From positions 1 to 64,000 of the forward strand of contig NZ_FYEH01000017.1 of assembly GCF_900187945.1 (NCBI RefSeq): a stretch of 64,000 nucleotides of DNA, written 5' to 3'. The translations under genes were made by a program, and so were the position numbers. Shown in pieces: positions 3,219 to 30,167 of this stretch; within the stretch, counting starts at the first letter, position 1, and every line of letters starts with the position of its first letter. The notes under the pieces were generated by a model. The model did not search any database, was not told where the DNA came from, and worked only from the letters and a program-made list of their open reading frames with translations. The stretch is from Arboricoccus pini (lineage in GTDB: Bacteria; Pseudomonadota; Alphaproteobacteria; Geminicoccales; Geminicoccaceae).

Positions 3219-4328
3219 TCAGGCCATCGCACCTCGCGCCGCGACCGGCCAGAGGCATTCCACCCGGCCGCGGCGTACGCCTACATACCAGTCATAGCGA
3301 TCGACGGTCGGATCGCAGTGGCCAGGCACCAGACGCACGCGCTGATCGAGGCTAAAGCGCCGATCGCCGCTTTCCCAGAAAAGCTGGCCGTGCTCGTCGG
3401 ACGGGCCGGCATAGCGGACATCGTCGTGACCCCAGACCGCTGGCGGACCGCTATCCACGGCCACGGCCTTGTGACCCGCATCGACGACGGCCATGCCGTC
3501 GCGAGTAACACTCATCACCGAAGCCAGAACGAAAAGGGAATGCCGAAAGGGCGGAGCTGGCTGGTTGCGACCGTAATCGGCGTCCATGAAGATGTAGGAA
3601 CCGGCCTGCAGCTCATTATAGACACCACTTTTTGCCTCGAGCGCGAAGGTACCGGTCCCCGCACCACCCACCGTCCGGCAGGCAAGACCCGCCTGCCGCA
3701 GCGCCTCGACCGTTTCGGCCGTCAATGCCGAGGCTGAGGCGATGGCGGCGCGACGCTCCTCCGGAGTCCGCAGATGCTGGGCCTTGCCATGATAGGCCTG
3801 GAGTCCGCCGAAGGTCAGATGTCGACTGTCGGCCACGCGGCGCGCCAGTGCCACGGCCTCGGCGCCAGGCGACGTACCGCAGCGACCGGCACCGATCTCG
3901 ATCTCAACCAGGACCTCGATGCTAACGTCGGCCGCCGCCGCAGCAGCCTCGATGGCGGCGATACCGGCTGCCGAATCCGCGCAGACGCCGATCTTGCAAA
4001 AGCGTGCGAGCGCCGCCAGGCGCGCGAGCTTCCTTGGGCTGACGACCTCGTTGCTGACCAGAATATCCTCGATGCCGCCCCAGGCCAGGATCTCGGCCTC
4101 GGCGACTTTCTGCACGCATTGGCCGACTGCCCCGGCCCGGCCTTGCAAGCGCGCGATCACCGGTGATTTATGCGTCTTGGCATGCGGTCTGAGCCGCACC
4201 CCGGCTGCCTTGGTGGCCTCGGCCATCGTCGCGAGATTGGCCTCGAACGCGTCCAGGTCCAAGACCAGAGCCGGCGTGTCGATCTCGTCTTCGGCCATGC
4301 CGGGCTCGGCGGGTGGACGCTGAATCAT
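3219..4328 (-). CDS. DSD1/D-threonine-aldolase family PLP enzyme
   Basis: 369 aa with the fold-type III (alanine racemase-like) N-terminal domain of D-threonine aldolase and D-threo-3-hydroxyaspartate dehydratase. RPHAKTHKS at 47-55 carries the likely Schiff-base Lys51. The C-terminal domain ends with PGHCDPTVDRYD, where His337 and Cys338 match the metal-binding pair of the DSD1 group. Expected chemistry is aldol cleavage or dehydration of a D-3-hydroxy amino acid, needing PLP and a divalent metal. The LysR gene lies 123 bp upstream in the same direction, and the tarD gene lies just beyond it on the other strand. Aldolase and dehydratase activities cannot be told apart from motifs alone. Confidence 0.8.
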   Translation of the reverse strand: MIQRPPAEPGMAEDEIDTPALVLDLDAFEANLATMAEATKAAGVRLRPHAKTHKSPVIARLQGRAGAVGQCVQKVAEAEILAWGGIEDILVSNEVVSPRKLARLAALARFCKIGVCADSAAGIAAIEAAAAAADVSIEVLVEIEIGAGRCGTSPGAEAVALARRVADSRHLTFGGLQAYHGKAQHLRTPEERRAAIASASALTAETVEALRQAGLACRTVGGAGTGTFALEAKSGVYNELQAGSYIFMDADYGRNQPAPPFRHSLFVLASVMSVTRDGMAVVDAGHKAVAVDSGPPAVWGHDDVRYAGPSDEHGQLFWESGDRRFSLDQRVRLVPGHCDPTVDRYDWYVGVRRGRVECLWPVAARGAMA

Positions 4329-7984: not shown

Positions 7985-9361
7985 GTGCCAGCTTCCATTT
8001 CCCGACCACAATTGACGCTGATGGGTTCCGCGCTCGGTTTTGCCGTCGTTCTTCTCGATGTCAGCGTGGTCAATGTTGCTCTCGATGCATTCCGCGACGG
8101 TTTCTCCGCCAGCGTCGTCGGCCTCGAATGGATCGTAAACGCCTACACGCTGACGTTTGCAGCCCTGCTCTTGATGGCTGGCGCGCTCGGTGACCGTTTT
8201 GGCGCCCGGAAAATCTTCCTCGCGGGATTCGTTCTGTTCACCTTGGCATCCCTGGCTTGCGGCCTGGCATCCACCTTAACGGCACTCATAGGCGCGCGGA
8301 TCGTCCAAGGAGCAGGTGCAGCACTGCTCGTTCCCAATTCCTTATCGCTGATACGCCACGCGTTCCCCGACCACGAGCAGCGCAGTCGCGCCTTAGGCTT
8401 GTGGAGCGCGACCGGCGGAATCGCCCTCGCAGCCGGCCCGCTTGCCGGGGGCCTCCTCGTCGCCCACTTTGGCTGGCGCAGCATCTTTCTCATTAATTTG
8501 CCGATTGGTCTGATCGGCTTGACGATGACACTTCGGTTTGCCCCTCCCTGCCCCGCTCATGCACAAAGGAAGCTCGACGTGCCGGGGCAGACGGCGGCGT
8601 TTGTCGCATTGGCCGCACTGGCAATCGCGCTGATCGAGGCTGGCAATCTCGGCTGGACGCACCCGAGAATCGTCGGCGCGTTGCTGACCGCAGTCGTTGG
8701 CACCCTGGCCTTCGTCGCCATAGAGGCGAAGCAGGCCGACCCCATGCTGCCATTGGCCTTGTTCCGGTCACGAGATTTCAAGATAGCATCCGTGAGCGGT
8801 ATATTTGTGAATTTTGCCTATTACGGCCTGATCTTCGTCTTCAGCCTGTTTTTCCAATGGCAACTGAAGTTAACCCCGGAACAGACGGGCCTCGCCTTTT
8901 TGCCGATGACAGTCGTTCTCATGCTGGCGAACATCATTGCCAGTCGGCTGATCACACGCCTGGGAGCGCGTCGGTTAATGGTGGCCGGACAAGCACTCGC
9001 GGCGCTCGGGTATCTGCTTTTGATCCCGGCTCTTGTTGCAGATTCCTACGCCATGCTGATCGTACCGATGCTCATGGCAGCCAGCGGCATCGCGCTCGTG
9101 GTGCCAACCATGACCAACATTACCCTTTCGTCGGTCGATCCGTCCCGCTCGGGCATTGCTTCGGCTGTTCTCAACACCGCTCGCCAAGTCGGTGGCATGC
9201 TGGGGGTGGCGGTTTGCGGGTATCTGATTCGGGACACGGCGCCGTCCGCTTTCGCGCATGGTATCCAGCTCTCACTCCTGGCTGCCGTGGCGCTCTTGGT
9301 GTTGGGCGGCCTGCTTTCCTTCTTTGGTCTGGAACGACGGCGAAAGCTCGTCGCAGCATAA
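7985..9361 (+). CDS. DHA2 family MFS drug exporter (EmrB/QacA-like)
   Basis: About 458 aa with the pattern of a 14-helix H+-coupled exporter of the inner membrane. DVSVVNVALDAF in helix 1 and the region around GALGDRFGARKIFLAG (motif A) mark the DHA2 family, and RIVQGAGAALLVPNSLSLI is the motif-C region. I chose GTG 7985 because the open frame upstream runs through the LysR operator; ATG 8021 is an alternative. It probably exports a toxic hydrophobic compound, with expression controlled by the divergent LysR protein. No membrane-fusion partner is adjacent, so it may act alone. Its substrate cannot be predicted. Confidence 0.83.
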   Translation: MPASISRPQLTLMGSALGFAVVLLDVSVVNVALDAFRDGFSASVVGLEWIVNAYTLTFAALLLMAGALGDRFGARKIFLAGFVLFTLASLACGLASTLTALIGARIVQGAGAALLVPNSLSLIRHAFPDHEQRSRALGLWSATGGIALAAGPLAGGLLVAHFGWRSIFLINLPIGLIGLTMTLRFAPPCPAHAQRKLDVPGQTAAFVALAALAIALIEAGNLGWTHPRIVGALLTAVVGTLAFVAIEAKQADPMLPLALFRSRDFKIASVSGIFVNFAYYGLIFVFSLFFQWQLKLTPEQTGLAFLPMTVVLMLANIIASRLITRLGARRLMVAGQALAALGYLLLIPALVADSYAMLIVPMLMAASGIALVVPTMTNITLSSVDPSRSGIASAVLNTARQVGGMLGVAVCGYLIRDTAPSAFAHGIQLSLLAAVALLVLGGLLSFFGLERRRKLVAA

Positions 9362-13183: not shown

Positions 13184-14809
13184 TCAGGCCGCGACAGACT
13201 TGGTCGAGCCTTTCAGCTCCTGGAAATGGTCGCGGATATAGGCGGCGGCGCGCAAGGCCAGGGCCGAGATGGTGGGGGTGGGGTTGACCACCCCGCCCGT
13301 CGCCAGAACGCTGCCATCAACGATAAAGAGATTGGGAACGTCCCAGCTCTGCTGCCACTTGTTGACGACCGAGGTCTCCGGGTCGTCGCCCATGCGACAG
13401 GTGCCGATCATGTGCCAGGCAGGCGTACGGTAGACGCCATTTTCGTCCTTGTAGTCCTGGAGGCGGTAGTCGAAGGCGCCAGCGGCCTTGGCGATGTCCT
13501 CCAGGCGATCCAGCATGTAGTTCATCATGCGGCGGTCATTCTCGCCGGGCTCATAATGCATGCGGGCGACGGGCATGCCGTTCGTGTCGGTAACAACGGG
13601 GTCGAGAAAGACCCGGTTATTGGGATTGGGCAGGTCGTCACCGATGGCGTGGATGCCGATGCCGTGGCCGAAATGACGCTCGAACCAGCGATGATGCCCC
13701 TCTCCCCAGGGCGCTCTCCTGTCGCTGATCCAGCCGGCAGCCACCTCGCCAGCCGACGAAGTGCTCGTCAGGCAGTTAAAGTTGAAGCCGTTGACAAAAC
13801 CCCTCGAGATATCGGTCTCGGCGAACTCGCGGCTGATCAGCGAGGCCACATAGCCCATATGGCCGTCGATCTGTTCATCGACCCACATCTCGGAGGAGAC
13901 CAGCGTGTGGTGGAGGAGGTTGCGACCGACCTGGTCCGACTGATTCGCCAGGTTGTCGGAGGCCAGAAGAAGTCGCGGCGTACCGACGCCATTCGCGGCG
14001 ACGATGACGATGGTGGCCGGCTGGAACTCGACGATGCCAGTATTTCGATCCTGGTAGAGAGCACCGGTAGCTCGGCCATCCCTGCCCTTCTCGATCTTGA
14101 GGACCCGCGCGTGGGTGCGCAATTTCGTGCCGGCCGAAAGTGCCTTTGGCCAGACCGAGAGCGAATATTTGCTCATCGAGCCGCGCGGGCAGCCGTTGCA
14201 AATGCCGCAGCCATTGCAGGCCGGGCGCCCGTCATAGTCCTCCGAGATGGTACCCGCCTCGGCTGGCCACCAGTGCCAGCCCAGTTTGTCGAAGGCGCCG
14301 GCCAGCGTGGCGGCCGCCTTCGTGAAGGGCAGCGGACCCGTCGGGCAAGGCTCGCGCGGCGGCATGGCGGGATCGCCCTCAAGGCCGCTTACACCCACCA
14401 GGCGGTCCGCCGCCTCGTAGAAGGGCGCCAGCTCCTCATAGCTGATCGGCCAGTTGGGCTGCAGGCCGTGCTCATCGCCCTTCCTGAAGTCGGAGGGCCG
14501 GTAGCGCGGCCAGATGGCGCCATAGACGTTGGTGGAGCCGCCGACACCGTTCCACATCAGGACTTGCGAACTGTCCGAGACGACCTTGTAGTCATCGGGA
14601 TGATGACGCTTGTTGATGTCGGCATTCCAGTTGGTACGACGCTGCCAGGTCCAGTCATTGCTGTAATGCGGGTGGTCCTCCCGCTCGACCCAGCCACCCT
14701 GCTCCAGGCAGACGACGTCGAGGCCGGCCTTGGCCAGGACGGTAGCGGCCAGCGAGCCGGTGGCACCCGCACCGATGATGAGAATGTCGCACGCTTCGTT
14801 CTGCTTCAT
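13184..14809 (-). CDS. GMC oxidoreductase with CxxCxxCxxC motif
   Basis: 541 aa flavoprotein like the large subunit of gluconate/glucose/fructose dehydrogenases. The FAD Rossmann motif GAGATG is at residues 13-18 and MWNGVGGSTNVYGAIWPRY is the second FAD segment. WHMIGTCRMG near the C-terminus supplies the catalytic His, and NPTPTISALALRAA closes the fold. Cys198, 201, 204 and 207 form a tight cluster where FAD-glucose and fructose dehydrogenases bind a 3Fe-4S cluster. The start is ATG 14809, which overlaps the subunit-3 stop as ATGA. It is the last gene of the operon and probably oxidises the imported polyol, sugar or its product. No cytochrome c subunit is encoded nearby, so the electron acceptor is unknown. 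Confidence 0.85.
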   Translation of the reverse strand: MKQNEACDILIIGAGATGSLAATVLAKAGLDVVCLEQGGWVEREDHPHYSNDWTWQRRTNWNADINKRHHPDDYKVVSDSSQVLMWNGVGGSTNVYGAIWPRYRPSDFRKGDEHGLQPNWPISYEELAPFYEAADRLVGVSGLEGDPAMPPREPCPTGPLPFTKAAATLAGAFDKLGWHWWPAEAGTISEDYDGRPACNGCGICNGCPRGSMSKYSLSVWPKALSAGTKLRTHARVLKIEKGRDGRATGALYQDRNTGIVEFQPATIVIVAANGVGTPRLLLASDNLANQSDQVGRNLLHHTLVSSEMWVDEQIDGHMGYVASLISREFAETDISRGFVNGFNFNCLTSTSSAGEVAAGWISDRRAPWGEGHHRWFERHFGHGIGIHAIGDDLPNPNNRVFLDPVVTDTNGMPVARMHYEPGENDRRMMNYMLDRLEDIAKAAGAFDYRLQDYKDENGVYRTPAWHMIGTCRMGDDPETSVVNKWQQSWDVPNLFIVDGSVLATGGVVNPTPTISALALRAAAYIRDHFQELKGSTKSVAA

Positions 14810-23932: not shown

Positions 23933-24877
23933 CTAGAGCGGCAGACGGACGACCCTGCCACGCGGCGCAACGGCGGGACGCGACGGCCTGAGCTCCACTC
24001 CGCGCTCATCCACGTCGATCTCAGCTTCGGGATAGACGGCAACAGCCTCGGCTAGCGCTTCCTTGAAACGCCGGCGAAAATCCCGCTCGCGGGTATATTC
24101 CGCCCCGAACTGCGCCTGGAGCGGTTTCCAGCCGACAATGGTCGGCTTCTTGATCGCGTGCAGCCGGTAGACCAGCCAGACATAGAGATCGATCACCAGC
24201 GGCTGGTTGCTGATGGCACGCAAAGCCGGCTCCCAAAGCGGCACGGGATGCGCCTTCAGGGCCTGGAAGAACGAATCCGTAAGCTCGATTTCGTCTTCCC
24301 AGAGACTTCCTTGATCGGGCTCGCGTGGCTGCGGGATGCTCATCATGCCGTCGATGATGTTCTCGCGCTTGAACCCTTCGGTGCCGTTGTCGCCGCGCCA
24401 AGCGATGGTCATGCGGCAGGCACTGATGCGATTGGCCTGCTCCCGGACGGCCGTGTAACTTTCGCCGCCGATGGCGATGCCAAGGCGGCCCAGCCACGCC
24501 CGCATGGAGCGGCCGATCTCGACGCGACGCGAATTGGTACGAATAGCCTCGGTGCAGAGATAGAGCAGGATCATGCGGGCCCGCGCTCCATAGGGGATGC
24601 CGTAGAAAACCGGCTGGCCCTGGCGGATGATCTTGCCGGGCTCGATCATCAGGCTGAACCGCCCGTTCTCGCGCAGCCATTCCCTCTGTTCGTCCTTGGG
24701 GCGCTTGTGTGGTAGCGAGGTCATGCAAAAGCCGGCATAGGTGATGCCCAGCTGATCGCTCTCCTCGCCCAGGACTCGCGCGGCCAGGTCGACGACGCGC
24801 CGCTCCTCGGGAGTCTGGGCTTTGGCCCGCGCTGACTCCAGGCCTTCGCGGATGACGAGCTCGTGGACCGCGCCCAT
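23933..24877 (-). CDS. repA: Plasmid replication initiator RepA
   Basis: 314 aa, matching the 'plasmid encoded RepA protein' family found on alphaproteobacterial plasmids. Recognisable stretches are GITYAGFCMTSLPHKRP, GIPYGARARMILLYLCTEA, RSMRAWLGRLGIAIGG and VIDLYVWLVYRLHAIKKP. This initiator should bind the iterons that begin 69 bp upstream of its start and load the host replication machinery. The start is ATG 24877. It reads away from the iterons, and parB and parA lie beyond them in the same direction. A fragment of a second relative lies at 59474-59722. Family assignment is by recalled motifs. Confidence 0.88.
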   Translation of the reverse strand: MGAVHELVIREGLESARAKAQTPEERRVVDLAARVLGEESDQLGITYAGFCMTSLPHKRPKDEQREWLRENGRFSLMIEPGKIIRQGQPVFYGIPYGARARMILLYLCTEAIRTNSRRVEIGRSMRAWLGRLGIAIGGESYTAVREQANRISACRMTIAWRGDNGTEGFKRENIIDGMMSIPQPREPDQGSLWEDEIELTDSFFQALKAHPVPLWEPALRAISNQPLVIDLYVWLVYRLHAIKKPTIVGWKPLQAQFGAEYTRERDFRRRFKEALAEAVAVYPEAEIDVDERGVELRPSRPAVAPRGRVVRLPL

Positions 24878-24946
24878 GGCAGCTTACCTGACTATATTCT
24901 TCCTCCAACGTCCACGAAGCTTAACAGCCCTTCCCTCGTCGTCCAA

Positions 24947-25097
24947 CATGGGTTCTTGTCGCGCACAGGCTCATCCCATGAGATCTTGTCGCGCTACTTT
25001 TCCCGTGGGTTCCTGTCGCGGCAAGGCTGGGGTGTTGTCGCGGATACCATGGGGCCTTGTCGCGGGCACATACCCTGCCCGCTGGGGTCTTGTCGCG
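24947..25097 (+). repeat. Iteron array, putative plasmid origin (oriV)
   Basis: Six direct 17-bp repeats with consensus CATGGGGTCTTGTCGCG lie at 24947-24963, 24977-24993, 25004-25020, 25026-25042, 25048-25064 and 25081-25097. The TGTCGCG core is invariant; the first ten positions vary slightly. Start-to-start spacing is 30, 27, 22, 22 and 33. The array sits just upstream of repA, and AT-rich DNA follows at 25100-25170, a candidate melting region. I did not find a good DnaA box. Iterons beside the initiator gene are the classic RepA-binding origin and copy-control element. Confidence 0.9.
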
Positions 25098-25166
25098 CAT
25101 AACCTATAACTAGATTCTCTTATAAACCCTTTAAGACCATGAACAGGCATGACTTTATTTTCTCTT

Positions 25167-25180
25167 GAAAATGCATTTTC
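25167..25180. promoter_or_regulatory. Candidate parS centromere site 1 (GAAAATGCATTTTC)
   Basis: Perfect 14-bp palindrome, imperfectly extended to 20 bp (CTT and GAG flanks). It is one of three identical copies confined to the repA-parB interval, about 70 bp beyond the iterons. Confidence 0.65.
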
Positions 25181-25894
25181 GAGGCAGCGGCGCACTCGCA
25201 TAAACCGTGGCCTTACAGCAAGACGAAAACCGGGCGGGCGTGCTCTTCGCCGAAGCTCGTGACCTGCGATGGCCGACGATGTGCGATGCGAAGGCTTTGG
25301 TCAAAGAGATTGCGCGCACGAGGTACTTTAGCCGTGGAGGCGGCAGACAGACGAAACCGCGCTCCGGTGATACCGACAGGCGGGCAATGCGGCCTCGATA
25401 TCTCGCCCTTGATCCAAGGCACGGCGCGAAGCGGTTTTGTCTGCCGCAACACGGATGCGCGACAAGTCCCCATCCCTGCGCGCCGTTGATTTATTCGAGC
25501 CTTAAGAGGTGGAATCGCGTGCGTGCTCGTCGGTGCCGTTTCAGGCATCGTCAATCCAAGGCGCGCCGGTCCAGCTTTAACCCCGGCCAGGTATTGAGTG
25601 TACGCAGGGTTAGGTGACCTGGTGCCGACCGAGCGGTGCTGCTCACCCGCATGATTCATATATGTAGGGCCGTAAATCGCTAACTCACTCCGTGAGGAAC
25701 TCGTTTCGGTCCCTGACTAAAGGTCATCCAGGCATTCCGGGGTCACTGCCCCTGCTCATACGTGACAACTATGCCTGCCGCCCCGCCGGGCGGAACGAAT
25801 AGGCGGGGTTCGCAGGAGTGCCTGCTTGCCCGACCTGTGTACGAAGCAAAGCCCGGCAAGCACGAATGAGCCTCGCCCAATCGGTCAGAGACGG

Positions 25895-25910
25895 AGAAAA
25901 TGCATTTTCT
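25895..25910. promoter_or_regulatory. Candidate parS centromere site 2
   Basis: Same 14-bp core extended to a perfect 16-bp palindrome, AGAAAATGCATTTTCT. It lies 729 bp from copy 1 in otherwise featureless non-coding DNA. Confidence 0.65.
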
Positions 25911-26852
25911 TCGCTGGGCGTGCGGGCAGCCGAGACCGCGTGGACGTGCCGGACTGGCGGACGGGTTAGGTGCAATCGGCGAGGGCGTTTTGAAAACGAT
26001 CGGCTGAGATACATAGTTGAAAAAACCAAAGGGCAGGAGGCCGGCCTATCGCTGCCCCGAGACCTGAGACCTGGTCTTGACGGCGATCTCTCAATTCCGG
26101 TTGACCGTGTTTTGCTTCGAGGCGTCGCGCAGTTCGGCCATTCCAGGCCCGACGCCATACGGAAGGTCGTGATCCGCCATCCGGGCTGTAGCTCGAGGGC
26201 GGAGCACCTTCACGGCCGAAAAAAAGGTGGTCTCTCTGTCAAGGGTCGGCCTTACGCGCGTGGCCGTGGGCGCCGGGGCGAGGTCGAGCAGGGACCAATG
26301 CTGGTCGTACTAACATCGGTATCGTTCATGCGATTCATTTTCGGTCATGGTGCCGGTGCCTCGCGGTTCCATCGGACCGTCATACGGGCCTGACCGGGAA
26401 ATGGCCGGTGGGCATTTGTCTTGAAGGCTAAAGCTAAGGCTGGAGGCGAGAGGTTATCGACGTTTATCGACCGGTATGGAGTCTTCGCGGCGTGCATGTC
26501 GTGGGCCACGGCCAAGCCGGGGGGCAGCCAAGCCGCTTGCCGCGTCGCTCGTTCTGTTGCCAAGGCCTCGGGGCTGCCATCCATCCAGGATCTGTCAGGG
26601 ACCGAGATGACGCTCATCTCGTCTTCATTGGTCAGTGCCAGGCAATTGGCCGCGCAAGCGACAAAGCGATGGGCCTTGAGACGGGTCTAAGACGGACATT
26701 TTGTTCGGTCACCAACCGGTTCTCAGCACGTGGTCTCCCGACGCGGGGGATGTTCGCCCGCATGGGGATCTGCGTGGGGAGCTCTCAACCTGGTGATGTG
26801 AGCCGTGCCGGGGATGGAGCTCGGCGGCTCGTCGCAGCAGGGAACAATGGGC

Positions 26853-26868
26853 CGAAAATGCATTTTCG
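26853..26868. promoter_or_regulatory. Candidate parS centromere site 3
   Basis: Same core in a perfect 16-bp palindrome, CGAAAATGCATTTTCG, 958 bp beyond copy 2 and about 185 bp beyond the parB stop. No fourth copy was seen elsewhere in the window. Confidence 0.65.
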
Positions 26869-26947
26869 TCGCCTAGCCTACGCGGTCACGCCTCTTTCCA
26901 GTCAGGGGTCTTGCGGGCGAGGACATCTGGACCTGTAGGCAGAAGAG

Positions 26948-27012
26948 TGATCCACGCCAAGCATGCAGGCAATTGGATTCCCGGACGTTGTTTCACGAAG
27001 TGGCGTGGATCA
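26948..27012. repeat. 12-bp perfect inverted repeat downstream of parB
   Basis: TGATCCACGCCA at 26948-26959 is exactly inverted at 27001-27012 as TGGCGTGGATCA, with 41 bases between. It lies 42 bp after the parB stop. It may act as a par-operon terminator or cruciform, as a recombination site, or as termini of a lost small element. No target-site duplication is obvious. Confidence 0.6.
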
Positions 27013-27053
27013 ACTTTCCGCAAAGTCCCCTTACATGTCGATTCGATCCCGAC

Positions 27054-28073
27054 CTATTCCTCGTCCTCGGCGACCTCGGCATAGAGTGAGGGGATGCGCG
27101 CGGCGAGGCGGCGGATGACGCGTTCGTCGAGACCGGGCTGGAAGCGAAAGACCAACTGACTGCCCGAGCGGGAGAGGCGACCGTAGCGGCGACCCTGCCG
27201 ATCGCGGATGAGGGTTCCATCCTTGTCTCCGGCAGTGGGTTGGGCGCCGTTGCCAAGCAGCCGGATCAGGTGCCGGGCCCTGGTCGTCGCATTGCCCTTG
27301 AGTGCACGCATGGCCTCGGCGTCAGCCTCGCTCAAGCTTCCTCCATGACGCTGGAGGACCGCTAGCAATTGCTTGCCGACACCGATGGAGAGATCGCGGG
27401 GATCGCCCAACATTTCCAGCACGTTCTCGGGGATATCGGCCAGGGCGGCCACATTGCTGACCTGTTGCGGCGTGACGCCCAAGAGCGCTGCCAATTCCGT
27501 GCGCTGGAAAAGGCCGGCTTTCAGCAGCCTTCGATAATGACGGGCTTTCTCAAGCGGCGACAGATCGATCCGCTGGGCGTTTTCGATCAGCATCTGGGCC
27601 ACCAGGCCCTGCTCGTCGAGCGTAACAATGACGGCGCGCACCGGGCGCCCCAGCGCCCGGCAGGCATGCACCCGTCGATGGCCAAAGACGATCTCGTAGC
27701 GCCCATCCTTGCCCTGGCGCAGGGCCGCGGGCGTGATCTGTCCATTGGCGGCGATTGACTGGCGAAGTGCTAAGAACGCATCGTCGGCAAATCCGCGATC
27801 GTCGCGATCCCGCCAGCTGGTGTCGTCAATGAGCCTGGTGTCGATCTCGACCACCATGCGGCCGGTGCTGACCGCCTCCTCCATCTGTCGGCGAAGGGCC
27901 TCATAGGCCTCAGCGGTGCCGCGCGAGACTTCACGCACCTGATCGCTGATCGGCACGACACCGGAGCGCCGCCTGGCACCGCCCTGCTCAGCCCGTTCCT
28001 GGCGTAGGCCGCTGATGGCAAGGTCGATTTCGTCCGTGGCACGTGCAGTCGGCGCTTTAGTCCGGGGCGGCAT
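27054..28073 (-). CDS. parB: Partition protein ParB (RepB-like, Spo0J family)
   Basis: 339 aa. ParB-box residues GHRRVHAC are at 131-138 and IENAQRIDLSPLEKA at 163-177, the CTP-binding and clamp region. An HTH (about 192-211, TELAALLGVTPQQVSNVAAL) follows, then a C-terminal dimerisation part. It should bind centromere sites and cooperate with ParA in segregating the replicon. ATG 28073 lies 5 bases after GGGAGG and is preferred over the GTG at 28076. It overlaps the parA stop by 17 bp. The likely targets are the three GAAAATGCATTTTC palindromes downstream. Confidence 0.9.
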   Translation of the reverse strand: MPPRTKAPTARATDEIDLAISGLRQERAEQGGARRRSGVVPISDQVREVSRGTAEAYEALRRQMEEAVSTGRMVVEIDTRLIDDTSWRDRDDRGFADDAFLALRQSIAANGQITPAALRQGKDGRYEIVFGHRRVHACRALGRPVRAVIVTLDEQGLVAQMLIENAQRIDLSPLEKARHYRRLLKAGLFQRTELAALLGVTPQQVSNVAALADIPENVLEMLGDPRDLSIGVGKQLLAVLQRHGGSLSEADAEAMRALKGNATTRARHLIRLLGNGAQPTAGDKDGTLIRDRQGRRYGRLSRSGSQLVFRFQPGLDERVIRRLAARIPSLYAEVAEDEE

Positions 28074-29277
28074 CACGTCCTCCCTTGCCGCTGGCGCTGC
28101 CGGGCCACTGGGCCAGGATCAGCGCTTCGATCTCGCCGTTGACGCCGTCCAGATAGTCGCGCGCCCGCTCGTAGCTCTTTCGGTTCTTCGACACTTCCAA
28201 CTCGTAGAGCGTGCGCTTGATATTTCCCGCCATGTCCAAGGCAGTCGTGATCGCCATTTTCTGGTCAAGGAGGCGATCGGCGAAGGTCGATACCATCCAG
28301 GCTGAGATGCGCTGATGATTCCGGTCGACGGTGTTGTACTTGGTAATGAGGATGCGCACGAAATCGAGCATCTTGCTCGACCCGCCCTCATATTCCGCAA
28401 TGTCGCGTAGCGTGTCGGCCATCATGCGGAAAAAGCGCCCCGTCGAGGCGAAATCCAGCATCGAGGGCGGTGCCGGCACGATCAGTGCTGTCGATGCGAA
28501 GATGGCATTGATGCTCAGATAGCCGAGCGAGGGCGGACAGTCGCAGACCACCACGTCATAGCGATCTTCAATGGTCTTGATGCCGTCCTCGAGCAGTCGC
28601 CAGAAGCGAAAATTGGTCTGCCGCATCTGTCGCACCGGCAATTCGAACTCGATCCGGTAGAGGCCCAGATTGGCCGGGATGATGTCGAGATTGGTCCAAT
28701 AGGTCGGACGGATCAGCGAGGCGAGGCTGTCGACGTCGCCGCGCAAAAAGGGATAGAGCGTTTCGGCCTCGCTGAAATCGTCGTCCGGCTGGAAACCGAA
28801 CTGCGTCGTAGCCGAGGCTTGGCTATCGAGGTCGAGCAGCAGTACTTTATAGCCCTTAAAGGCCAGGAATTGCGCCAGATGGACGGCCGTCGTCGTTTTG
28901 GCTGCGCCCCCTTTGAAGTTCGAGAGCGTGACGACCTGGAGCTTGTCCCCTCGCTCGCGGCGTCGGCCCACGCGGTAGCGGTCATCCCCGGTCTTCAAGA
29001 GGAGATGAGCGCGGATTCGGTTGACTTCCTCAAGCGTGAAGCCGCGCTGGGTCTTGCCGATGGGCTGACCCTTTGGAACGTCCTCCTCCTCGAGCACCAG
29101 CCGACGCAGATAGGAATCCGAAATCCCCAAAAGCCTTGCGGCCTCGCGCGTAGGCAAGAGCCGCAGCCGCTTCTCGCGATGCGGCTTGTTGTCGATCTCG
29201 ATGATCCGCCTTTGGACTGCCTCCGATAATTCGGCATAATCCTCAAAGGCGGCGATGAGGTCGACGGCGTCGCTCAT
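28057..29277 (-). CDS. parA: Partition ATPase ParA with N-terminal MerR-like HTH
   Basis: 406 aa from ATG 29277; the frame is open further upstream but that part contains an iteron-like repeat and is not protein-like. Residues about 40-95 form a MerR-like winged HTH (TREAARLLGISDSYLRRLV), usual for large plasmid ParA/RepA proteins that repress their own promoter. The deviant Walker A KGGAAKTT is at 122-129, and Walker B reads DVVVCDCPPSLGYLS. Together with ParB it positions replicon copies by ATP-dependent binding to nucleoid DNA. An iteron-like 17-mer lies about 120 bp upstream, so RepA may also influence this promoter. Confidence 0.92.
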   Translation of the reverse strand: MSDAVDLIAAFEDYAELSEAVQRRIIEIDNKPHREKRLRLLPTREAARLLGISDSYLRRLVLEEEDVPKGQPIGKTQRGFTLEEVNRIRAHLLLKTGDDRYRVGRRRERGDKLQVVTLSNFKGGAAKTTTAVHLAQFLAFKGYKVLLLDLDSQASATTQFGFQPDDDFSEAETLYPFLRGDVDSLASLIRPTYWTNLDIIPANLGLYRIEFELPVRQMRQTNFRFWRLLEDGIKTIEDRYDVVVCDCPPSLGYLSINAIFASTALIVPAPPSMLDFASTGRFFRMMADTLRDIAEYEGGSSKMLDFVRILITKYNTVDRNHQRISAWMVSTFADRLLDQKMAITTALDMAGNIKRTLYELEVSKNRKSYERARDYLDGVNGEIEALILAQWPGSASGKGGRDAAPD

Positions 29278-29393
29278 CAGGCTGGCTTTCTTTCGTTTCT
29301 CCTCAACGAACACGCTTAAACGAGAAAACGCAATAAGTCGATAAAATCCGTGCATGGAGAGAGACGGCCGGGTGTCGGTGTGTCCCGCCCTCC

Positions 29394-29410
29394 ATTGGGG
29401 TCTTGTCGCA
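29394..29410 (+). repeat. Seventh iteron-like repeat, upstream of parA
   Basis: ATTGGGGTCTTGTCGCA differs from the iteron consensus at three of 17 positions and is in the same orientation as the oriV copies, 4.3 kb away. It lies in the parA/antitoxin intergenic region, about 117 bp before parA. Confidence 0.65.
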
Positions 29411-29441
29411 TCCACGACTCTTGCCGTGCAAGCGGCGTGAA

Positions 29442-29460
29442 TGATATGTAGTCAATATCA
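29442..29460. promoter_or_regulatory. Toxin-antitoxin operator candidate (TGATAT-N7-ATATCA)
   Basis: Perfect 6-bp arms, overlapped by a second pair (GTAGT at 29448-29452, ACTAC at 29460-29464), lie 25 bp upstream of the antitoxin start. Antitoxins of this class usually repress their own promoter through such sites. Confidence 0.55.
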
Positions 29461-29484
29461 CTACTTGGCATGGGGAGGTGGCGC

Positions 29485-29724
29485 GTGGAGCGTCTTGTGA
29501 CGGCGGTTGATGCCAACCGACATTTCTCCGAGATTCTGCGCGCGGTGCGCGAGGGTGGCAGCTATGTTGTCACGGCCCACGGCAAGCCTGTGGCCCGAAT
29601 CCTGCCGATCGAAGAGGGGCCGGGCGGCCGCGACGAGGCGAGGCGCCGGCTTTTGCGGCGTCTTCGCGAGGAAACGCCCGTCGATGTCGGTCCCATCGGC
29701 CGCGACGAGCTGTATGAACGGTGA
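29485..29724 (+). CDS. Phd/YefM-type antitoxin
   Basis: 79 aa from GTG 29485, which follows GGGGAGG by 6 bases; an upstream ATG at 29470 overlaps that site. The N-terminal TAVDANRHFSEILRAV and VVTAHGKPVARILPI are the Phd/YefM DNA-binding fold. The charged C-terminus (about 50-79) would wrap the toxin. It neutralises the PIN-domain toxin encoded next and probably represses the pair. The reading frames overlap as GTGA. Placed beside parA, it likely stabilises the replicon by post-segregational killing. Confidence 0.85.
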   Translation: MERLVTAVDANRHFSEILRAVREGGSYVVTAHGKPVARILPIEEGPGGRDEARRRLLRRLREETPVDVGPIGRDELYER

Positions 29725-30167
29725 GGATCGCCCTCGACACCAACGTGCTGGCCTATGCCGAGGGGGTGAACGGCGTTTCGCGGCAGGCCGAGGCGCTGAA
29801 TTTGCTCGAGCGCCTGCCGCCGCATGACCTGGTGCTGCCGGTTCAAGTCGTGGGCGAGCTTATGACTGTTCTTGTCCGCAAGGCCGGGCGGACCCGTCCG
29901 GCGGCCCGCAGCGCGATCTTGAGCTGGCAGGAACTTTGCCACCTCGTGCCGACCTCCGTCCAGGTCATCCGCCGGGCGACCGATCTCGTCGCCGACCATG
30001 GGTTCAGCACCTGGGATGCCGTGATCCTGGCTGCGGCAGGGGAGGGGGGCTGCCGCATTTTGCTGTCGGAAGATATGCAAGATGGCTTCACCGCCGGCGG
30101 CACAACCATCGTTAATCCGTTCGCCAAGCAGCCGCACCAGCTTCTGACCACGCTGTTGCGAGACTGA
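29721..30167 (+). CDS. VapC-like PIN-domain toxin RNase
   Basis: 148 aa from GTG 29721. MRIALDTNVLAYAEG carries the first acidic PIN residue. VVGELMTVL carries the conserved Glu, and STWDAVILAAA plus LSEDMQDG supply the remaining Asp residues of the Mg2+ site. VapC toxins cut tRNA or rRNA; the target here is unknown. The start overlaps the antitoxin stop, so the two are translationally coupled. Confidence 0.87.
   Translation: MRIALDTNVLAYAEGVNGVSRQAEALNLLERLPPHDLVLPVQVVGELMTVLVRKAGRTRPAARSAILSWQELCHLVPTSVQVIRRATDLVADHGFSTWDAVILAAAGEGGCRILLSEDMQDGFTAGGTTIVNPFAKQPHQLLTTLLRD

Follow-up and report, generated by a model that had tools for sequence, protein, structure and literature searches.

A thrice-repeated 14-bp palindrome as candidate parS centromere of a RepA_C/iteron plasmid in Arboricoccus pini

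Three copies of the perfect 14-bp palindrome GAAAATGCATTTTC, located beside the parAB genes of contig C24 of Arboricoccus pini, are very likely to be parS sites and hence the centromere of a RepA_C/iteron plasmid. This reading comes from sequence comparison and relies on (i) the confinement of the sites to a single locus, (ii) their conservation at an orthologous parAB locus, and (iii) the agreement between palindrome class on the one hand and ParB clade and recognition helix on the other. The features of the locus, given as positions in the window (the whole stretch of 64,000 nucleotides that was analyzed), are as follows.

23933..24877, minus strand: repA, RepA_C-family replication initiator of an iteron plasmid (Pfam RepA_C, 102 bits)
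24950..25097, plus strand: iteron array, six copies of approximately GGGNTCTTGTCGCG, 5' of the repA start (sequence repeats)
25167-25180, no strand: candidate parS 1, exact GAAAATGCATTTTC, conserved in the related genome G014
25458..25471, minus strand: stray copy of the iteron, inverted, located between palindromes 1 and 2 (iteron-like sequence)
25896-25909, no strand: candidate parS 2, exact GAAAATGCATTTTC, inside an ORF at 25818-26393 (plus strand)
26854-26867, no strand: candidate parS 3, exact GAAAATGCATTTTC
27054..28076, minus strand: parB, RepB-like, with ParB_N and HTH domains; recognition helix at about 203-211 (PQQVSNVAA region)
28057..29277, minus strand: parA, RepABC-RepA-like ATPase (TIGR03453, 352.6 bits; alignment with G014)
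29397..29410, plus strand: single iteron-like copy upstream of parA (iteron-like sequence)
29470-30167, plus strand: Phd/YefM-type antitoxin and PIN-domain toxin adjoining parA (side observation)

The palindromes and their replicon

The three exact copies, spread over 1.7 kb, were recovered where the original prediction had placed them, and its statement that the window holds no others stands even when two mismatches are allowed (none found; 0.18 expected in shuffles). Likewise, a scan of the whole genome (28 contigs, 4.07 Mb) returned no exact copies beyond the three, i.e., no genome-wide scatter of the kind that would speak against a centromere. Contig C24 (86,694 bp, no terminal overlap detected) contains 14 different perfect 14-bp palindromes, among which GAAAATGCATTTTC is the sole repeated one. 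The triplet had been proposed not to be a product of chance, and this is illustrated by 3000 dinucleotide shuffles of the region 24878-27053, none of which contained any 12- or 14-bp palindrome twice. The sequences flanking the three copies are mutually unrelated, hence the palindrome is not part of a longer repeat.

The gene order is repA (minus strand), six iterons, 1.9 kb with the palindromes, parB and parA (both minus strand), and the Phd/PIN pair, which is likely a plasmid addiction pair. No gene was recognizable in the 1.9 kb between the iterons and parB: a credible Pfam match was obtained for none of the seven ORFs scanned around the palindromes, and a comparison with 72,556 plasmids gave no DNA match to the palindrome region. 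The non-coding setting assumed in the original prediction thus appears reasonable, although ORFs do overlap the sites. Its placement of the palindromes between the iterons and parB is correct for the main array (24950-25097) but not for the stray copies at 25458-25471 and 29397-29410. No Rfam match was found at 24800-29600, and promoter and terminator scans around the palindromes remained at chance level. Just downstream of parB, an imperfect inverted repeat (26939-27021, 21-nt arms, 41-nt spacing) might function as a terminator or as a regulatory hairpin.

Stray iterons were also observed on another plasmid of the same genome, C22, where they are of its own type TGGACTCTTGCTGC (L044 5642, 6304, and inverted at 8352-8374). 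Together with the copies at 25458-25471 and 29397-29410, they suggest that RepA might be coupled to the control of parAB. Besides, this genome encodes at least four full-length RepA_C initiators (C24, C22, C5 and C17) and a fragment on C12. Several related replicons therefore share a cell, which would favor distinct centromeres.

ParA is a Walker-type ATPase (AAA_31, 127 bits) that passes the NCBI RepABC-RepA model TIGR03453 (352.6 bits for a cut-off of 348.45); its start was set at 29277 since the G014 homologue aligns from residue 1. ParB scored above the cut-offs for PF02195 (ParB_N) and PF17762, matched ParB structures and has a ParB-type fold, its AlphaFold model being weak (mean pLDDT of 58), and it fell below the RepB model TIGR03454 (137.5 bits for a cut-off of 201.5). 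The protein encoded at 27054-28076 also carries GHRR and ENAQR motifs, which we take to be those seen in CTP-binding ParBs. Hence, a ParA ATPase, a ParB with ParB_N and HTH domains and clustered, ParB-conserved palindromes near parAB, as expected of a ParABS system, were all found at this locus.

Conservation of palindromes with parAB in the family

Conservation in related replicons, proposed as a check of the centromere reading, was found at the nearest parAB locus. Within the family set (31 genomes from 16 genera, the named members being Geminicoccaceae), the closest ParB relative is encoded on contig G014:C200 (JAGRGG010000025.1), from another genus of the same family, with 57-59% identity depending on the alignment. 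This contig carries exact GAAAATGCATTTTC twice, at 1507 and 1541, in the gap that separates parA (1672) from the gene before it; the doublet is spaced 34 bp start to start, with 20 bp between the copies. A further site, AAAAATGCATTTTC, has one mismatch to GAAAATGCATTTTC and lies at 3850, directly after the parB stop. No RepA homologue was found on this 30-kb contig, and the sites thus travel with parAB and not with repA. The contig otherwise bears glycogen/trehalose-type genes (named by eye), and its parAB genes with their palindromes could represent a partition module that was integrated or relocated there. This is the one independent relative with exact GAAAATGCATTTTC at parAB: the exact sequence was absent from the other 29 of the 31 family genomes and occurred in three others among a sample of 386 genomes of the class, as one isolated copy each. 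A contig search with ParB alone returned no relatives, the same search with a two-sequence ParB alignment returned the G014 contig only, a class-wide ParB search (E 1e-25) gave no homologue outside the family, and viral contigs yielded only weak ParB matches.

At the parAB loci of six more distantly related ParB homologues (32-38% identity), the palindromes are of another type, ATC-N3-GC-N3-GAT, as listed below.

Own contig C5: ATCAATGCATTGAT
G023: ATCAGCGCGCTGAT, two copies
G021: ATCAGTGCACTGAT
G019: four variants of ATCAGTGCACTGAT
G026 (CP122394.1): ATCGATGCATCGAT, four copies, and three variants (seven in all)
G025: ATCAGAGCACTGAT in both orientations, the copies 35 bp apart

The seven TATCGATGCATCGATA-like palindromes of G026, a named Geminicoccaceae plasmid, lie within the 2.8 kb that follow parB (L092, CP122394.1 2492-5162) and carry no parS annotation. 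Among the 31 genomes, the 16-mer TATCRRYGCRYYGATA, with TA ends, matched such ATC-type parAB loci only; the pattern was derived from those same loci, and only its absence elsewhere counts as independent evidence. A looser pattern, ATCRRYGCRYYGAT, was rejected as class marker, being scattered in every genome and so not diagnostic alone. The repABC palindrome GTT-N4-GC-N4-AAC was present at four of the six alphaproteobacterial repAB loci examined, and the three classes, i.e., GAAAATGCATTTTC, ATC-type and repABC, have in common a GC center and the same 16-bp frame. No recognizable repeated palindrome was found at the C22 (parAB/repA) and C17 loci of the own genome, and the C22 locus indicates that not every related locus has a recognizable site; nor was one found at the betaproteobacterial and Shinella XGS7 relatives. 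On contig C8 of the own genome, a single palindrome GTTCTCGATCGAGAAC lies near a chromosomal-type ParB (L045, 5732-5747), with a classic GTTTCACGTGAAAC site at 13201 in the same locus.

In all 12 loci compared, the class of palindrome went with the ParB clade and with the recognition helix. In a maximum-likelihood tree of ParB, the two GAAAATGCATTTTC proteins group together (support 99/98), as do the six ATC-type proteins (100/100) and the RepABC proteins (100/100). The recognition-helix block of the HTH, GVTPQQVSNVAALA, is identical in both ParBs of the GAAAATGCATTTTC class and differs in the other classes: GLSQPSIVAYLKLG in the ATC class, where the block is G[LI]SQPSIV.YLKLG-like, and.VD[KR]AEVSKLIAVA-like in the RepABC class. 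Distances between helix blocks followed those between palindromes (Mantel test, r of 0.85, exceeded in 0 of 20,000 permutations), and as whole-ParB distance correlates equally well (r of 0.88), this agreement is partly shared ancestry. Caulobacter ParB/Noc specificity is switched by positions 173, 179 and 184 (PMC7383237); when aligned through chromosomal ParB, these positions would fall in or beside the HTH block.

Known parS systems and alternative explanations

The palindrome had been described as unlike both the Spo0J-type site and GTT-N4-GC-N4-AAC. Neither was matched, since the window contains no occurrence of the repABC consensus GTTNNNNGCNNNNAAC (GTT-N4-GC-N4-AAC) and none of Spo0J-type TGTTTCACGTGAAACA with up to three mismatches, but the 16-bp frame and GC center of repABC are kept. 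Like GTTNNNNGCNNNNAAC, GAAAATGCATTTTC is a perfect palindrome with a GC center in this frame, and ParA lies above the cut-off of the RepABC RepA model. In contrast, the outer GTT/AAC arms become (N)GA/TC(N), ParB lies below the RepB cut-off and in a separate clade, and RepC is absent, replication being assigned to an iteron RepA_C initiator. Indeed, repC (PF03428) had no match in the own genome and, within the family, was found in G026 only. A RepABC identity of the replicon was thus discarded on repC, the parS consensus and the ParB score, with ParA alone passing.

The arrangement, with three identical copies within some 2 kb of non-coding DNA, recalls 3parS of Paracoccus pAMI4, where RepB binds all three sites and partition is supported by them (PMC9040568). 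In RepABC compatibility groups of Rhodobacteraceae, 14-bp palindromes are tied to one partition-protein clade and often form doublets 11-42 bp apart (PMC5613091). The sites described here resemble them in length, in the G014 doublet spaced by 20 bp and in the common GC center, whereas their arms (TTAACAGCTGTTAA, TTCACAGCTGTGAA) differ from GAAAATGCATTTTC. As shifted-arm sites defining RepABC compatibility groups are already documented there, the surprise is limited. The chromosomal Spo0J/ParB site TGTTTCACGTGAAACA is also a palindrome on the 16-bp scale bound by the ParB HTH, as predicted for GAAAATGCATTTTC, but has a CG center instead of GC. The ATC-N3-GC-N3-GAT loci belong to the same family and have the same gene pair and GC-centered frame, with one to seven copies; they differ by their ATC/GAT arms and another conserved recognition helix (SQPSIVxYLKLG). 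The proposal of a distinct centromere is supported by the confinement of the sites to the locus and their conservation at the G014 parAB, with the reservation that they belong to a diverged RepB-like class and not to an unrelated one. The exact site strings occurred in none of the relevant papers searched.

Other explanations were considered. The palindromes could be operators of another DNA-binding protein, such as RepA or one that regulates neighboring genes, given their proximity to repA and the iterons and the two G014 copies in the parA promoter region, a possible place for an operator. This is unlikely, as the G014 contig keeps the sites without a RepA homologue and has one of them directly after parB, the sites of the window are not at promoters of recognized genes, and the site class tracks the ParB clade. 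Alternatively, ParB binding to the sites might serve mainly regulatory or incompatibility functions, such as autorepression or copy control, and the actual centromere would then lie elsewhere, since the function of repABC parS varies by position and stability can even drop when copies are added (PMC9040568). However, three copies over 1.7 kb, a promoter-like pattern not above chance and no other repeated 14-bp palindrome on contig C24 make it improbable. The non-coding setting and unconserved flanks would suit a chance or decayed repeat element, which is scarcely credible: the shuffles never reproduced such a repeat, the copies have unrelated flanks, and conservation at orthologous parAB in another genus refutes it.

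Proposed partition mechanism and plasmid compatibility

In ParABS systems, a palindrome is bound by ParB dimers, which then close into CTP-dependent clamps and spread, and nucleoid ParA moves the complex. The locus very probably works like, and is, a ParABS centromere. Judged from its sequence, GAAAATGCATTTTC is most aptly assigned to a divergent parS class of RepB type carried by an iteron replicon. By homology, ParB (27054-28076) would bind each palindrome as a dimer through its HTH, then load and spread on the flanking DNA as a CTP-gated clamp. ParA (28057-29277), on the nucleoid, would move the ParB complex, so that plasmid copies would segregate into the daughter cells. If the sites are parS, tight binding of this ParB is expected to GAAAATGCATTTTC only, as against ATCAATGCATTGAT and GTTGACAGCTGTCAAC. 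The arms of GAAAATGCATTTTC differ from those of the sister plasmids, probably because RepA_C/parAB replicons that occupy one cell need separate centromeres.

This locus provides a concrete, cheaply testable candidate ParB-parS pair that falls under neither of the two best-known site types, with a second candidate class in the same bacterial family. With repABC, the two classes form a natural series in which the arms of a GC-centered palindrome and the ParB recognition helix change together. This series bears on the evolution of centromere specificity and plasmid compatibility, and is a possible source of orthogonal ParB-parS labels. We consider it reasonably probable that, on plasmids of the Geminicoccaceae, two or more ParB-parS specificity classes exist that have not been described before, GAAAATGCATTTTC and ATC-N3-GC-N3-GAT among them. 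These classes would have arisen from a RepB-like ancestor through recognition-helix changes, would be mutually orthogonal and would be kept apart by the co-residence of several RepA_C replicons in one cell.
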